Shown here piece by piece: positions 36,379 through 42,616 of a DNA stretch of 64,000 nucleotides. Each line of letters begins with the position of its first letter. The first letter of the stretch is position 1. The stretch is from the NCBI GenBank assembly GCA_029880285.1, contig JAOUOS010000005.1, forward strand, positions 62,001 through 126,000, read 5' to 3'. Below the pieces are notes generated by a model, which made no database searches, was not told where the DNA came from, and saw only the letters and a list, made by a program, of their open reading frames with translations. The position numbers and the translations under genes are program-made. The stretch is from Spirochaetia bacterium (GTDB taxonomy: Bacteria > Spirochaetota > Leptospiria > Turneriellales > JAOUOS01).

Positions 36379-37372
36379 CTTGCTTCAAAAAAAAATTATT
36401 TATATAACATCTTTTTCTTTTGTTTTCTTATTATTCTTTTTAGGATTTTCTATATATTTTTTTAATAAACCTGCCGGTAACGGTTCCCGTAAAATTGATC
36501 TTATTGTAAAACCCGGCTGGGGTTCTAAGGTTACAGCTGATATACTTGAAAAAGAAAATTTAATAAAAAACAGCTATTTTTTTAGGACCCTTCTTATTAT
36601 AACAGGAAATCGAAATAATATTAAAAAAGGGATTTATCCCATAAATAACTCGATGAGTTCTTCTAAAATTATTGATATTTTAACAAGCGGAAAGACTAAA
36701 GTAATTAAAATAACTATTCCTGAAGGCTTTAATAACCGGCAAATTGCCGATTTATTTGTTAAAAATGGTTTTTTTTCAACAAGACAAGAATTTCTAGCCT
36801 TTGCCGCGAATAAAAACATTTTAAAAGCTTATAATATTTTGGGCAATGACCTCGAAGGATATCTATTTCCTGAAACTTATTATATTCCTGTAGGCTATGA
36901 AAAGCAAAAAGTAATTGAATTAATGGTAAATACATTTTTTGAAAAAGTTTCAAACATTCCCGATTTTCCTCAAAATTTTAAAGAAAGACAACAACTGATT
37001 ATTTTGGCCAGTATTATTGAAAAAGAAGCAAAATTAAAAGAAGAAAGACCTATAATTGCCAGTGTTTTCTCGAATAGAATTGCCGAAAATTATCCGCTGG
37101 AATCATGCGCTACTATACAATATTTATTTGAAAAACCTAAAAATCCGCTTTTATTTAAACATTTGAAAATAAAATCACCTTATAATACGTATATTAATAA
37201 GGGACTTCCTCCCGGTCCTATTGCGAGCCCGGGCTTAGAGGCATTACAAGCGGCATTAGATCCGGCTGAAACTCAGTTTAAATTTTTTGTGGTAAAAAAA
37301 GACGGTAGCCATCATTTTTCAAAAACCTTTAATGAGCATGTAAAAGCAAAAAGATATGAATTTCTTCATTAA
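36314..37372 (+). CDS. mltG: Endolytic murein transglycosylase MltG
   Basis: Inner-membrane lytic transglycosylase that cuts nascent peptidoglycan strands. After one membrane helix (IIYITSFSFVFLLFFLGF), a LysM-like region contains GWGSKVTADILEKENLI. The YceG domain has DLEGYLFPETYYIP and LASIIEKEAKL with the catalytic Glu, ending LPPGPIASPGLEALQAALDP. Length is 352 from the ATG at 36314, but that start overlaps the previous gene by 65 nt. A TTG at 36380, right after the previous stop, gives a cleaner N-terminus and may be the real start. It converges on dapF with a 4-nt overlap. Confidence 0.92.
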   Translation: MRKEQEKTKSVVLIPKKLWLNNLLQKKIIYITSFSFVFLLFFLGFSIYFFNKPAGNGSRKIDLIVKPGWGSKVTADILEKENLIKNSYFFRTLLIITGNRNNIKKGIYPINNSMSSSKIIDILTSGKTKVIKITIPEGFNNRQIADLFVKNGFFSTRQEFLAFAANKNILKAYNILGNDLEGYLFPETYYIPVGYEKQKVIELMVNTFFEKVSNIPDFPQNFKERQQLIILASIIEKEAKLKEERPIIASVFSNRIAENYPLESCATIQYLFEKPKNPLLFKHLKIKSPYNTYINKGLPPGPIASPGLEALQAALDPAETQFKFFVVKKDGSHHFSKTFNEHVKAKRYEFLH

Positions 37373-38217
37373 ATGATAGTAGTTTCGCCTTCAAAAACGT
37401 CTTTACAGGGTCCTGTCATATAAACATGGTTATCTTTTTCAGACCAGTAAATTTCTAAAATACCGCCTTTTAAGTCTACTTTGCTTTTTCTTTTAATTTT
37501 ACCTATAAGTACGCCGGCAACAACAACAGCAGAAGCGCCAGTACCGCAGGCAAGAGTTTCGCCTACGCCTCTTTCCCATGTTCTTTGTTTTACCTGATCT
37601 TCATCTACCATTTGCACAAATTCTACATTGGTTCTATTGGGAAAAAGAGAATAATTTTCTATAAGCGGTCCATATTTTTCAACAGGAAAGTTATCTACAT
37701 CGTCAACCCAAATCACACAATGTGGATTTCCCATTGAAACGACAGTGCATTGAAAAGTATTATGATCATCTAAATATATCTTTTCATTTAATACTTGTTT
37801 ATTTTCTTCACCCGGAGCGTACTGCATGGGAATTCTAGATCTTTCAAATATGGGTTCACCCATATCGGCCTTAACTCTATATACTCTGCCGTCTCTAACC
37901 ATTAATATACTGGGAATTATACCCCTTAATGTTTCAACCATTAATTTTTGTTTAGTGGTTTTACCCCTATCATATAAATACTTACCAAGACATCTTATCG
38001 CGTTGCCGCACATTTCGGCTTCTGTACCATCGGGATTAAAAATTCTAATTTGAATATCAGCTTTAGGAGCATCTGGTTTCATTATTAAAACCAAACCATC
38101 GGCCCCAACCCCGTAATGTCTATCACAAAGAAGTCTTGCCGCTCTGGCCGGATTTTTAGGTATATCTTCAGTAAAAAGATAATCATTGCCTAACCCTTCT
38201 AATTTTGCGAATCTCAT
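37369..38217 (-). CDS. dapF: Diaminopimelate epimerase
   Basis: Interconverts LL- and meso-diaminopimelate for lysine and peptidoglycan. The two catalytic cysteines are in MCGNAIRCLGKY and ACGTGASAV, and GLGNDYLF and ERGVGETLACG are conserved segments. Length 282 is normal. A GAGGAG ribosome-binding site lies about 8 bases before the ATG. The adjacent MltG is also a cell-wall gene, but they are convergent, so not an operon. Confidence 0.95.
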   Translation of the reverse strand: MRFAKLEGLGNDYLFTEDIPKNPARAARLLCDRHYGVGADGLVLIMKPDAPKADIQIRIFNPDGTEAEMCGNAIRCLGKYLYDRGKTTKQKLMVETLRGIIPSILMVRDGRVYRVKADMGEPIFERSRIPMQYAPGEENKQVLNEKIYLDDHNTFQCTVVSMGNPHCVIWVDDVDNFPVEKYGPLIENYSLFPNRTNVEFVQMVDEDQVKQRTWERGVGETLACGTGASAVVVAGVLIGKIKRKSKVDLKGGILEIYWSEKDNHVYMTGPCKDVFEGETTII

Positions 38218-38272: not shown

Positions 38273-38301
38273 TTGACTTATACGATAGAGAAAATTAAAT
38301 A
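38273..38301 (+). promoter_or_regulatory. Promoter of the sigma-like/anti-sigma pair
   Basis: TTGACT (38273-38278), 17-nt spacer, TAAATA (38296-38301). The start would be near 38308, with a leader of about 50 nt before the ATG at 38359. The hexamers fit a housekeeping sigma, so I see no sign of autoregulation by the new sigma factor. Confidence 0.45.
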
Positions 38302-38358: not shown

Positions 38359-39228
38359 ATGCCAAATTTTATGGATGAGACAGGCTTTCAAGAACTTTTT
38401 ATAAAATACAGTCAAAGTCAAGAAGGTTCTATTGAACGAGAAAAGTGTAAAGAACTTTTGCACGAACATATTTATTTATATCCCATTAGAAGATATAGAG
38501 CCAGCTCTGATGACGCGTCTGATTTTTATTTATATTTATATCCAAAAATTAATTTATTGTTTGAGAGCTATAATCCTAATAAAAATATTTCATTTTTAGT
38601 TTATTTATCTGTCAAATTAAGGTATTACTTTTATAAATTTCTAGAAAAAAATAAATCAAAAAAAATACTAAATATAGAGAATAGTCATGTAAGCTGGGAA
38701 AATGAAGCTGACAGCAGGCCGTTTTTTGTATCACATGAAAATGATAATGATAAAGACAAGCTTAAAAGTTTTATTCAAAAAGCCATTGAATCATTAGAAC
38801 CGGCTGAAGAACTGCCTACCAGACTTTATTATGGTTTTCCTTTACGACTAAAGCATTTAAGATTTTTATTTAAAACTCATGGCAGTTATTTAATTTTTGA
38901 TGAATACAGAGAATATTTAAATAAACTAAATGAATGGGAAAAAAAAGAAAGTAAAAATAAGAAAAATCTGCTTATAAAACTTCAAAAAATACAATTAAAG
39001 ATAGAAACAAATAAAGAAAAAGAAGATGAACTTTTTAAAAAACAAAAAGAAGCATTAGATGATTTTTTTAACATTAAAAACCCTATTTCATTAAAAAAGA
39101 TATCTGATATTCTAAAAGAAGCAATATCTGTAATTCATAGGAAAATAAAGAAAGCTCGCTTTAAAATTAAAAATTTTATTTTAAATAAATTCGAAGAATT
39201 TAAAGAACTTGTAAATATAACGGTTTAA
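38359..39228 (+). CDS. Probable divergent sigma-70-family factor
   Basis: Not a standard sigma by eye, but the layout fits. Residues 32-97 (PIRRYRASSDDASDFYLYLY, then FLVYLSVKLRYYFYKFLEK) resemble region 2, including the D-D-A-x-D-F helix of region 2.2 and a basic/aromatic 2.4-like end. Residues 244-277 (SLKKISDILKEAISVIHRKI) fit a region-4 helix-turn-helix. The linker of about 110 residues is Lys/Glu-rich and coiled-coil-like, far longer than in ECF factors. The next gene, one base downstream, encodes an HxxxCxxC anti-sigma-like protein, which strengthens the call. I infer transcription initiation at an unknown regulon. It may instead be a DNA-binding regulator. Confidence 0.5.
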   Translation: MPNFMDETGFQELFIKYSQSQEGSIEREKCKELLHEHIYLYPIRRYRASSDDASDFYLYLYPKINLLFESYNPNKNISFLVYLSVKLRYYFYKFLEKNKSKKILNIENSHVSWENEADSRPFFVSHENDNDKDKLKSFIQKAIESLEPAEELPTRLYYGFPLRLKHLRFLFKTHGSYLIFDEYREYLNKLNEWEKKESKNKKNLLIKLQKIQLKIETNKEKEDELFKKQKEALDDFFNIKNPISLKKISDILKEAISVIHRKIKKARFKIKNFILNKFEEFKELVNITV

Positions 39229-39229
39229 C

Positions 39230-39871
39230 ATGGCTAAAACAAAACACTTAAGCGAAGAAAACTTTATGGCGCTTTTACAGCATTCTTTAGATAAAAAATC
39301 TTTTAATAATAATAAAAATATTTTAAATACTTTAAGTCATCTAGAAAAATGCGCTGTTTGCTTTGCCGGTTTTTGGGAATCATACGATACTCTCAATATT
39401 TTAAAAACGAAGAAAATTTCTTTACTAACAAAACTTTCTATAGAGTTGAACGGCATCGCTCAAACTTTTTCTTTAAAAAATATACAAAGCTTTCTTCCTG
39501 TATCGTTTACGCCGGCAGCAGCCGTAAGAAATAACAGTGATAAAGATTTTTTTTCAGAAGGAAAAATAAAAATAATTGAAAAAAAACTACCGGGAACTGT
39601 ATTTTCACTACAAATAAAAACAAAACCAAAAGTATTGTATTTTGTATGGAATATAAAAGGCGAATATAAAAGACTGGTAGATTTATGTTTTTATGTTAAC
39701 AATAAAGAAGAAGAAAAACAATCGGGATTTACTAAGCCTTTAGAATTTATATTCTCGCATGAAACAAAAAAAAGAACCGCCGATACAAACTTGTTTTTTA
39801 CCATAAAATATTTAGACAGCAGAGAAAAAACTAATGAAAGAAAAATCTTCGAAATAAATATTACAAAATAG
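39230..39871 (+). CDS. Probable soluble zinc-binding anti-sigma factor
   Basis: The N-terminus LSEENFMALLQHSL and the motif H37-L-E-K-C41-A-V-C44 match the HxxxCxxC zinc motif of ZAS anti-sigma factors. No membrane helix follows, so this is a cytoplasmic form. The rest (about 90-213) is beta-rich with an FxLxIKTKPKVLYFVWNIKGEY stretch of unknown fold that could be a sensor. It starts one base after the sigma-like gene. Known ZAS proteins bind their sigma and release it on thiol oxidation or ligand binding. By analogy this one may respond to redox or metal stress, but that is inference. Length 213. Confidence 0.55.
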   Translation: MAKTKHLSEENFMALLQHSLDKKSFNNNKNILNTLSHLEKCAVCFAGFWESYDTLNILKTKKISLLTKLSIELNGIAQTFSLKNIQSFLPVSFTPAAAVRNNSDKDFFSEGKIKIIEKKLPGTVFSLQIKTKPKVLYFVWNIKGEYKRLVDLCFYVNNKEEEKQSGFTKPLEFIFSHETKKRTADTNLFFTIKYLDSREKTNERKIFEINITK

Positions 39872-39873
39872 TT

Positions 39874-41049
39874 TTATTTAATAAGATTTAAAAAATAAGA
39901 CTCTACTTCTTTATAATCTCTATCTAGTTTTTCAGGTAAAAGCTTTAACCCTTTTTTAATATGAAAAGCCGCTTTATCTTTTTTATTATCTTTTAATAAT
40001 TTTTGACCGGTAAAGATTTCATCGCGGGCCTTAATATATTTTTCACATTTTTTGCATTTTGGATTTTCTTCTAATAACTGCTTATATCCGTCAGCTATTT
40101 CTAGGTTTTCAAATTTTGTATCCATAAGACAACCCTTGGGATGATCGTAAACATCTGGTATCCAGTAAATTTGATGACCCATCTCGTGAGCCACCAGATA
40201 TCCGCCTATGGCTTTATTTATAAAATCACGTGATAAACTTCCCATTTTTGAACTTGCTTTACCTAAAAAATAAGGTTCATTAGAATAAAGTTCAAATACA
40301 CTGCTAAAAGAACTGACACCCGCTAAATTACCCTCACGCGCGGGAGATTCAAAGCTACTGCCCGATACCTTGGCGTGTTTAAAAATAACATGAGGATAAG
40401 GCTTTTCAATTTCATCATAAACTAAAATAGTATTTGTAAGAATTATATCATACGAATCTTGATATTTCATCAACTCAACCCATGCTTTATAACTGTGATA
40501 TTTATGATTTTTTGAAAATAAAGAGTTTTGATTTTTAAGTTTATATTTTTTTAAAAATAAAAGTTTTTCATTATACACTTTTATTAAATAATCGGCAAAA
40601 TCAGAATAACTTTTTGCCTTATAATAGGTATTTAAATCACTTAATGACCAATTGTTTTTAAGAAAATTGATTATTTCATTTTTCTTAAGTAAAATCTTTT
40701 GTTCCCATTTTTTTTCATCTATACCCAGCAAAGGTTCAAAATTTTTAAGCCAGTTATCAAACTTTGAATTTTTCTGTGCCGATTCATTAAATAAATTTTC
40801 AAGCGTTCCTGTTTTTATAATAGAAAAATTAACCGAAACATTGGTAAACTTTTTCTGCAGCATTACAATAGCTTCATTAAAAATAACATCAATATCTTCA
40901 TTACTTAACTTTTCAAGACGATTATCTTGAAAAACACCTACTGTTAAATTAATTTTTTGATTTTGGTATTCTGGCTTTTTATTTGAAAAATAAAACAAAG
41001 CTAAAAAAATAGAAAATAATATTATTAAATGATATTTTCTATTTTTCAC
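39874..41049 (-). CDS. Exported archaemetzincin-like zinc protease
   Basis: Has an N-terminal hydrophobic segment (LIILFSIFLALFYF) but no lipobox Cys. HEMGH at residues 288-292 is the zinc motif. It is followed by D, a GCLMD segment resembling the archaemetzincin C-L-M/C-V-M part, then about 20 residues later a CKKC knuckle. That order (HExxH, C-x-M, CxxC) is the family's hallmark, although the exact HExxHxxGxxH/D spacing is not kept (the Gly position is Trp/Tyr and the third ligand is shifted). The first 250 residues are unlike it. The neighbour on the same strand is also a metalloprotease. Length 391. Confidence 0.6.
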   Translation of the reverse strand: MKNRKYHLIILFSIFLALFYFSNKKPEYQNQKINLTVGVFQDNRLEKLSNEDIDVIFNEAIVMLQKKFTNVSVNFSIIKTGTLENLFNESAQKNSKFDNWLKNFEPLLGIDEKKWEQKILLKKNEIINFLKNNWSLSDLNTYYKAKSYSDFADYLIKVYNEKLLFLKKYKLKNQNSLFSKNHKYHSYKAWVELMKYQDSYDIILTNTILVYDEIEKPYPHVIFKHAKVSGSSFESPAREGNLAGVSSFSSVFELYSNEPYFLGKASSKMGSLSRDFINKAIGGYLVAHEMGHQIYWIPDVYDHPKGCLMDTKFENLEIADGYKQLLEENPKCKKCEKYIKARDEIFTGQKLLKDNKKDKAAFHIKKGLKLLPEKLDRDYKEVESYFLNLIK

Positions 41050-41062
41050 TTTAGTACCTTTG

Positions 41063-42487
41063 TTATCTATTATTCTTTAATAATTTTTTATTGATTGGTA
41101 TATGCAAATATCTGGCATTATAAGAGCTTGAAGTTTTTTTAAGTTTTTCTTTTAATTGAGATTTTTCGTCTGAACTTGCCTGAAGCTTATTTAAGGTCAA
41201 TTCACTTGATTGTGACGCAGAAATACTTACAAAAGACGCTCCTGCCTCAGGATTATGATCGTGATTGTATATTATAAAATTACTATCATCAGCGTGATAC
41301 ATTTGCGTAAAATTATACACGCCTGCGCCGCTTATTGAAGGCGAAGTACCCGCTTGCTTTACCAATGGAACAAAAGAATACGGTTCAATATATTTGTTAG
41401 ATACCGCGCCGGCAAGAGGTTTTAAGAAAAACTCATTGGTTTTTAAACTAAACTCATATCCTAAAGGAACTTGAAGAAAATTAGTGCTGCTTGAAGTACT
41501 TCCCGATTGAACCGTTAGTCCTGCTGAATTTAAATTATATAAAGAAGCGTACAAAAACCTGTATGAGCAGTCAAATTCAGGATACGTTAAATGATATACA
41601 TTTGAACAATAGTCAATAAGATTTACATCTTGCATACTTTGAAGAGCATTATTAACACCCTCAATACCCGCAAAGCCTGAAGAAGTTATTTCATAAAAAA
41701 TATTAGAGCCATATATATCATATAAATATCTAAAGTAAACATAAGCATTTGCGTAATCAGTTAAATTGTCATCCCATTTTATTAAAGAATTACCCGCTGT
41801 ATTTTCAAATTCAAATAATTTATCAATTTGAGGACCATAACCGGCAATATCTGAAGCAACCTGAGACATACCTTCATTTACCCATACTTCTTCAAAATTA
41901 TCAATCCCTCGGTTATAAGCTCTATAATCTTCGCTAAAATTTAATAAATGCTGGTATTCATGTGTTAATACTGATAATAAAAATTTTGAACCAAGAACTG
42001 TTGGGTACGTGTCTAAATATAGCATAGCTCTTTCGTTAGATCTTGCCCCATCTGCATATTTTATGGCATCAGCATCTAAAACATAGTTCATTGGATTAAA
42101 ATATCCTCCAAAGAAAGGATCTTCTATAGTCTCAAATCCATCTTTTATATCAAGAAATAAAAAGGTAATTTTTTTTTCTGTGCCAATGTAATAAGGCTCA
42201 CCAAAAACAGGGTTTATAACTTTTATAATATGATTTTCAAAAGTATGTAATACATCTTCTACCTTTTCAATATCAACGTCAGATGTTACTTCTACATACG
42301 CTATAGCGTGTTCTGTTTCTCCCGCGAAAATAGCCTGAACCTGATAATATTCATTTTCAGCGTTAAAAACATCAACTGCCCAAAAAGATTTTGTTCCTAG
42401 AGTGTCAACGAGAGGTTCTTCATCTGAATTTATACAAGAAAAAACCGCTAAATATATTATAAATATTTGTTTAATTTTTTTTAACAC
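41063..42487 (-). CDS. M30-like zinc metalloprotease lipoprotein
   Basis: Exported neutral protease family protein (hyicolysin/M30 type). I start at GTG 42487 because it gives MLKKIKQIFIIYLAVFSC, a textbook lipoprotein signal with the lipidated Cys. The ATG 72 nt upstream would add an odd Cys-rich leader. Zinc site HEYQH is at about residues 176-180, with the later Glu in VWVNEGMSQVASD. A 280-residue C-terminal part is Ser/Thr-rich and beta-like. A consensus-like promoter sits immediately before the GTG. Length 474. The adjacent gene on the same strand is also a putative metalloprotease. Confidence 0.75.
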   Translation of the reverse strand: MLKKIKQIFIIYLAVFSCINSDEEPLVDTLGTKSFWAVDVFNAENEYYQVQAIFAGETEHAIAYVEVTSDVDIEKVEDVLHTFENHIIKVINPVFGEPYYIGTEKKITFLFLDIKDGFETIEDPFFGGYFNPMNYVLDADAIKYADGARSNERAMLYLDTYPTVLGSKFLLSVLTHEYQHLLNFSEDYRAYNRGIDNFEEVWVNEGMSQVASDIAGYGPQIDKLFEFENTAGNSLIKWDDNLTDYANAYVYFRYLYDIYGSNIFYEITSSGFAGIEGVNNALQSMQDVNLIDYCSNVYHLTYPEFDCSYRFLYASLYNLNSAGLTVQSGSTSSSTNFLQVPLGYEFSLKTNEFFLKPLAGAVSNKYIEPYSFVPLVKQAGTSPSISGAGVYNFTQMYHADDSNFIIYNHDHNPEAGASFVSISASQSSELTLNKLQASSDEKSQLKEKLKKTSSSYNARYLHIPINKKLLKNNR

Positions 42488-42494
42488 TACGTGT

Positions 42495-42524
42495 AGTATA
42501 ACAAATTTGCATATCAAACGGCAA
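42495..42524 (-). promoter_or_regulatory. Promoter overlapping the M30 protease start
   Basis: Minus-strand -35 TTGCCG (plus 42519-42524), 18-nt spacer, -10 TATACT (plus 42495-42500). The predicted start falls on or next to the GTG at 42487, implying a leaderless transcript if this promoter is used. Confidence 0.45.
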
Positions 42525-42616
42525 GACTTTTTTAAATAACATGGTACTCTTAAGGACATCTATACTTACAATTTATAGAATTATATACTTTTATATTAAT
42601 TGTTTTGATTAGGGTC

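Follow-up and report, generated by a model that had tools for sequence, protein, structure and literature searches.

A divergent ECF-type sigma factor with a predicted split region 4 and its ZAS-like partner in Spirochaetota: a candidate CHAT-linked switch

The ECF (group 4) sigma factors SigR, SigH, AlgU, and sigmaE have sigma2, sigma4, and the TIGR02937 profile in common with the sigma factor described here, whose predicted sigma4 superposes on those of SigR and sigmaE. Unlike in these factors, region 4 of the present family is broken by 67–125 residues between two anchor positions that lie 5 residues apart in AlgU. The soluble ZAS anti-sigma factors RsrA, RshA, and ChrR share the following features with the protein encoded next to our sigma factor: the lack of a membrane helix; the HxxxCxxC motif; three predicted N-terminal helices; and a gene position directly after the sigma gene. 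The partner differs from them in that it adds a predicted C-terminal beta-sandwich after a segment with a conserved arginine, and in that the zinc motif is gone in many of its relatives.

In Craspase of the type III-E CRISPR systems, Csx29 (TPR-CHAT) cuts Csx30 and thereby frees CASP-sigma, as described in the available text of PMC10028731. Common to the loci of that text and ours are an ECF-like sigma factor, a nearby inhibitor (here presumed), and, in some lineages, a CHAT gene in the neighbourhood; our loci, however, are not tied to CRISPR as far as they are annotated, cleavage is putative, and the CHAT gene is unlinked in the genome analysed here. In the group ECF54, CHAT-domain proteins occur in the ECF neighbourhood and the system works without an anti-sigma factor, according to the accessible sections of PMC8999054. 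Proximity of CHAT to an ECF factor is therefore shared, whereas the anti-sigma-like gene is present in our loci and absent from ECF54 as presented there.

Both proteins studied here are of known kinds, an ECF sigma factor and a ZAS-type anti-sigma factor. They represent a new variant with regard to the split region 4, the beta-sandwich partner, and the linkage to CHAT; no description of the pair or of a split sigma4 was found in the literature searched, which covered few subscription papers. The sequences and structure models make it somewhat probable that the ECF sigma factor and its soluble anti-sigma factor form a switch opened by a CHAT-type protease, with binding and cleavage both predicted.

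The sigma factor and its region 4

The window, i.e. the entire stretch of 64,000 nucleotides that was analysed, is located on contig 56 of a 3.3 Mb genome (G000). Two adjacent genes with a one-base gap, pointed out in an earlier note on this DNA, were confirmed as open reading frames (ORFs) at 38359–39228 and 39230–39871. Both are on the plus strand and encode proteins of 289 (sigA) and 213 (partner) amino acids; a single base separates the sigA stop codon from the ATG of the partner gene. The features of sigA and its neighbour are as follows.

37369..38217, minus strand: dapF, divergent neighbour of sigA (genomic context; membership in the switch is not claimed)
38359..39228, plus strand: sigA, predicted sigma factor of ECF type whose region 4 is split, 289 aa (ORF, TIGR02937, AlphaFold2, structure alignment, orthologues)
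38359..38676, plus strand: predicted sigma2 domain, residues 1–106 (AlphaFold2 helices between 7 and 106; structure alignment)
38746..38829, plus strand: first part of sigma4, predicted region 4.1 helices, residues 130–157 (AlphaFold2, structure and profile alignment)
38836..39084, plus strand: predicted Lys/Glu-rich helical hairpin inside sigma4, residues 160–242 (AlphaFold2; AlgU profile alignment)
39085..39225, plus strand: second part of sigma4, predicted region 4.2 helix-turn-helix, residues 243–289 (AlphaFold2, structure and profile alignments)

The sigma protein matched NCBIfam TIGR02937 over residues 34–272 (E 5.8e-8) with 32.5 bits, which is below the cut-off of 42.9 bits, a naming rule of NCBI and no part of the fold definition. 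The paralogue in the same genome (G000:C90) scored 71.4 bits, and all 19 relatives examined from outside the class matched this profile at E up to 0.01. A Pfam scan of the window sigma protein gave no match, Sigma70_r2 included; this domain was matched in 11 of the 32 family members scanned, the window protein being outside those 11. Single-sequence queries of a large protein database with the sigma factor and the partner returned the window's own proteins only. Comparison of both with PDB sequences by phmmer yielded chance matches only; in PHROGs, the sigma factor had one chance match (E 0.088) and the partner had no match. A profile search retrieved 62 database proteins; the organism names among the matches listed all belonged to Spirochaetota, and the names of family proteins were generic ('sigma-70 family' or hypothetical). 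The family profile also matched SigH (5zx2_F, E 6.8e-9) and AlgU (8z6g_B, E 1.6e-6). Judged from sequence, the window protein is likely a divergent ECF factor, for which binding to core RNA polymerase and initiation are predictions only.

The AlphaFold2 model of this protein had a mean pLDDT of 87 and a pTM of only 0.54. Its sigma2 superposed with 96 residues on SigI6 (8i24_F) at 2.8 Å and with 91 residues on region 2 of sigmaE (4lup_A) at 3.1 Å. Region 4 of SigR (5fgm) was covered completely (65/65 residues, 1.7 Å) across model residues 134–279, as was that of sigmaE (2h27_D; 69/69 residues, 2.7 Å) across residues 130–279. A whole sigma4 is thus spread across 146–150 residues of the model. 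Region 4.1 is predicted to be parted from the helix-turn-helix of region 4.2 by about 85 residues that fold into a helical hairpin, with helices at 164–174, 178–217, and 219–237. The region 2 and region 4 signals perceived in the earlier note are hence supported by the TIGR02937 match and by a model that agrees with solved sigma2 and sigma4 structures; the sigma fold for which the note proposed to look in such a model is there. The Lys/Glu-rich 'linker' of the same note is indeed rich in these residues (stretch 160–243 contains 17 K and 10 E), but it lies inside region 4, while the true linker between sigma2 and sigma4 is the low-confidence stretch 105–129.

The insert is also seen in the profile alignment, where the family profile follows AlgU residues 2–150 and then 156–188, with profile positions 151–241 skipped between them. 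The distance between the 4.1 and 4.2 anchors, 86 residues in the window protein and 5 in AlgU, is 74–96 residues in 26 orthologues, 107–125 in six paralogues, and 67–105 in 19 relatives from outside the class; an insert was found in every protein measured. The hairpin may provide an extra contact with RNA polymerase, with DNA, or with the partner.

Scoring of sigma70-like promoters in the dapF–sigA spacer of 14 genomes of the order gave no score on the sigA strand that was distinguishable from dinucleotide shuffles (p 0.2–0.95). A TTGACT box at window position 38273 was therefore dropped as a sigA promoter. The dapF proteins of the order share 47–54% identity with matches from outside the order (mostly Clostridia) and only 33–39% with the dapF occupying the same place in two genomes of family f6 (L049, L050); dapF was possibly replaced in situ beside sigA, as far as these sequences indicate.

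The partner protein and the occurrence of the pair

The features of the partner gene are listed below.

39230..39871, plus strand: partner gene, product predicted to be a soluble anti-sigma factor of ZAS type that ends in a beta-sandwich (ORF, AlphaFold2, adjacency, profiles)
39230..39409, plus strand: predicted three-helix anti-sigma domain, residues 1–60 (AlphaFold2 helices 9–20, 29–40, 42–60)
39338..39361, plus strand: HxxxCxxC zinc motif HLEKCAVC, residues 37–44 (sequence motif)
39527..39529, plus strand: codon of Arg100 in the inter-domain segment, putative cut region (alignment of 20 class sequences)
39431..39865, plus strand: predicted beta-sandwich domain, residues 68–212 (AlphaFold2; weak fold matches)

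The AlphaFold2 model of the partner, based on an alignment of 20 sequences, had a pLDDT of 82.5. As the top 19-residue hydropathy is 0.92, the protein lacks a membrane helix; this and the motif HLEKCAVC agree with its description in the earlier note. Pfam and NCBIfam searches with the window partner gave at most chance matches, zf-HC2 (PF13490) not among them, and zf-HC2 had zero matches among 20 class partners. In an alignment of 13 outside-class partners and two class members, zf-HC2 was matched in seven of the 15 rows (E up to 0.1, best 1e-8), all of them outside-class, the class rows being devoid of it. The claim that neither protein belongs to a named family was consequently not sustained: the sigma factor falls into TIGR02937, as do its 19 outside relatives, and 7 of the 13 outside partners match zf-HC2. 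The structure look-up for the beta-sandwich returned weak fold matches and listed no cupin of the kind present in ChrR, though the window partner may have one. Sequence and model together indicate that the partner is likely a soluble ZAS-type anti-sigma factor, with zinc binding and sigma inhibition as predicted properties.

The motif HxxxCxxC was identified in 6 of the 20 aligned class partners (window, G001, G002, G030, G043, G026) and in 8 of the 13 outside-class partners. Arg100 is the sole invariant residue among the 20 class partners; an inter-domain arginine is present in all 20 and in 11 of the 13 outside-class partners, two of which have no arginine there. The role of this conserved arginine may be structural. 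These counts bear on a redox or zinc switch like RsrA–SigR and ChrR–RpoE, in which zinc bound by HxxxCxxC would hold the partner in its folded state on the sigma factor until oxidation ejects the zinc and frees the sigma factor, with no protease. Such a switch would suit the soluble window partner with its HLEKCAVC motif and predicted three-helix N-terminus, as well as the zf-HC2 matches in 7 of 15 rows, and oxidative stress is the usual signal for soluble ZAS factors, as stated in the accessible part of PMC8999054. Zinc can, however, be purely structural according to the available text of PMC7406223, and the frequent loss of the motif, against retention of the linker arginine, counts against a purely redox switch, which we regard as unlikely. 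Zinc as a universal trigger was rejected since the motif is missing in 14 of the 20 aligned class partners.

The class set comprised 48 genomes, namely 18 of the order, 22 of family f6, and 8 of family f5. sigA was detected in 17 of the 18 genomes of the order (absent from G009), and dapF is its divergent neighbour in all 16 in which the contig reaches that far. The partner adjoins sigA in 12 of 16 testable genomes. It is not beside sigA in G004, G005, G006, and G011, of which G005 has a partner on another contig; in G001 the pair is split between two contig ends. A paralogous pair, sigB and its partner, also exists, with the copy of the window genome at G000:C90. Profile comparison gave 98.2% for sigA against sigB, across their full length, and 78% for the partners.

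Several other genes were seen around these pairs. In G005 and G011, a protein of 106–115 aa with two CxxC pairs follows the sigma gene in the place of the partner (L035:6476-6793, L036:277-621). A protein of 156–180 aa comes after the pair in genus g7 and in G017 (L040, L041, L042, L043, L044, L045, L047); those of L040, L043, and L047 have a His-rich tail and, by eye, the look of a SlyD-type isomerase, the L040 protein being without a Pfam match. Two minus-strand genes at 39874–42559 of the window carry, by eye, the HExxH metallopeptidase motifs HEMGH and HEYQH. They were left out as targets or regulators because, among the mapped loci, only the sister genome G001 has them beside the pair, and their orientation is opposite.

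In family f6, sigA was found in 18 of 22 genomes, with dapF adjacent in 15 of the 18 and a 113-aa STAS protein directly 3' of the module in all 18. In 11 genomes, a stand-alone protein with a match to the beta-domain is encoded between the sigma and STAS genes. In three genomes the sigma protein apparently carries this domain as a C-terminal fusion (E 2e-5 to 1e-4, weak matches), and the four genomes of genus g14 contain a short ORF with a weak or no beta-domain match. The intervening protein is only 103–123 aa long in seven f6 genomes; as this leaves no room for both domains, the helical domain cannot be what sequesters sigma in every case. In family f5, sigA-like genes occur in four of eight genomes (G020, G025, G035, G047), none with a partner beside it; the G020 gene stands beside STAS, and no partner, STAS, or dapF was recognised adjacent to the other three. 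The respective loci are L192, L240, L241, and L242, three of the four also being without STAS. Also, in all six mapped f5 loci (L191–L196), a STAS gene is followed by a gene for a protein of 984–1017 aa.

The constant STAS gene of family f6, whose G030 copy matches PF01740 at E 1.7e-20, could be taken for partner switching, in which a STAS-type antagonist would bind the partner or the beta-domain and free the sigma factor. In the window genome, the STAS gene with the best match (G000:C6) shares 50% identity, but neither the window nor the mapped loci of the order have a STAS gene next to the module, and STAS antagonists typically pair with an RsbW-type kinase rather than with a ZAS protein; this mechanism appears less likely still than a redox switch. 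That some f6 genomes keep only the beta-domain, beside or fused to the sigma factor, might suggest that the partner is an accessory or chaperone of sigma (an activator or an aid in RNA polymerase docking) and not an inhibitor, but this is very improbable given its predicted N-terminal architecture, the outside zf-HC2 matches of anti-sigma type, and the order sigma gene, then partner gene with almost no gap, which is typical of anti-sigma pairs.

The sigma family profile, applied at E 1e-8 or better, matched 134 of 296 Spirochaetota genomes, namely 47 of the 48 class genomes (sigA and sigB pooled) and 87 of 248 outside, where many matches, chiefly in family f14, cover sigma2 only and the weak matches possibly represent other sigma factors. 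Twenty of these 87 loci, chosen mostly as the strongest, were examined, and the insert was measured in 19 relatives. At 13 of 19 testable outside-class loci, a partner comparable in size and position was present, a proportion that may overstate the linkage owing to this choice of loci. It was absent in G145, G100, G094, G057, G207, and G077, and the G062 locus stops at a contig edge. In a search of the 13 outside partners, the class partner profile matched nine (E below 0.01); the four others, all from f14, gave no match and are assigned by place, size, and the linker motif. Comparison by hhalign of outside and class partners without shared rows gave 94.9% (E 4e-8; reversed control 0.2%), which is used here instead of an earlier value of 98.7% that was set aside because two rows stood in both alignments. 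The corresponding comparison of the sigma factors gave 99.9% (E 2e-31; reversed control 0.7%). The recurrence of the pair in 12 of 16 order genomes and at 13 of 19 outside loci speaks to the conservation on which the earlier note had made its proposal depend. Of the previously undescribed transcription switch suggested there, the sigma fold, the ZAS-like partner, and the conserved pairing are supported, whereas the proteins themselves are not without kin.

CHAT protease-like genes and the predicted release of sigma

A CHAT protease-like gene is located directly upstream of the sigma gene, on the same strand, in seven outside-class genomes from three families (G050, G062, G083, G108, G090, G073, G058). 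The encoded proteins belong to one protein family and are 447–473 aa long. Pfam CHAT matched the G050 protein at 8.6e-14; at E 0.001, Pfam had no match for the upstream proteins of G058 and G073. All seven of these sigma-linked proteins have retained a Gly-His and a Cys, and the His and the Cys align with those of Leptospirae CHAT proteins, both being present in 7/7 aligned. The profile match between the outside CHAT-like set and the Leptospirae CHAT set was 99.8%.

Within the class, CHAT was recorded above its cut-off in 44 of 48 genomes. The gene order sigB–partner–CHAT occurs in six of the eight f5 genomes (G018, G020, G025, G047, G019, G022); in the remaining two, these genes are near contig ends. 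The f5 loci with sigB, partner, and CHAT are L097, L098, L093, L094, L243, and L244, with CHAT proteins of about 594–609 aa, and in L097 the CHAT gene is followed by a 242-aa ORF with a weak CxxCxxCC match. The CHAT protein of the window genome (G000:C42) carries H233 and C273, and its gene is unlinked to the sigma–partner pair. In the order, the CHAT gene stands beside a gene for a protein of 633–645 aa, by eye resembling an acyl-CoA synthetase, at all three mapped loci (L206, L207, L208).

Outside the class (n = 248), 45 genomes have both the sigma factor and CHAT, 42 the sigma factor only, 5 CHAT only, and 156 neither. The Fisher p value for this co-occurrence is 1e-19, or 1e-8 without the matching f14 genomes, and is inflated by related species. 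In the 45 genomes with both, the two genes are adjacent in seven and apart or on other contigs in 37, one sigma place being unlisted.

The preferred reading, a sigma/anti-sigma switch opened by a CHAT protease, consists of two parts. Its sigma/anti-sigma part draws on folds, profiles, and gene order and is highly probable; the sequences directly show the two genes and their recurrence as a pair, the zinc motif, the linker arginine, and where the insert lies and how well it is conserved, and the folds are predicted. The CHAT step draws on the two linked gene orders, the co-occurrence, the conserved His-Cys, the inter-domain arginine, and the precedent of Csx29, Csx30, and CASP-sigma; it is plausible, though tentative. 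CHAT relatives are able to cut after Arg.

In this switch, the N-terminal three-helix domain of the partner would sequester the sigma factor and keep it inactive, and the beta-sandwich would act as a sensor or protease-docking module. A CHAT protease, here the unlinked G000:C42, would cut the partner in the arginine-bearing segment, and the released sigma factor would direct RNA polymerase to its own promoters. With more doubt, we consider it possible that this is an ancestral, CRISPR-free, caspase-like switch of Spirochaetota, in which CHAT would cut the ZAS-type anti-sigma factor after the inter-domain arginine and free the hairpin-split ECF factor, the hairpin giving this factor an additional, novel interface to RNA polymerase, to promoter DNA, or to the inhibitor.

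If the model holds, sigma4 tolerates an insert of 85 residues that separates its RNA polymerase-contacting half from its −35-reading half, and such an insertion spans many lineages of one phylum. The CHAT protease, the anti-sigma factor, and the sigma factor would then make up a testable trio, for a pathway on which we found no paper. This finding suggests that CHAT-controlled sigma factors reach beyond type III-E CRISPR.
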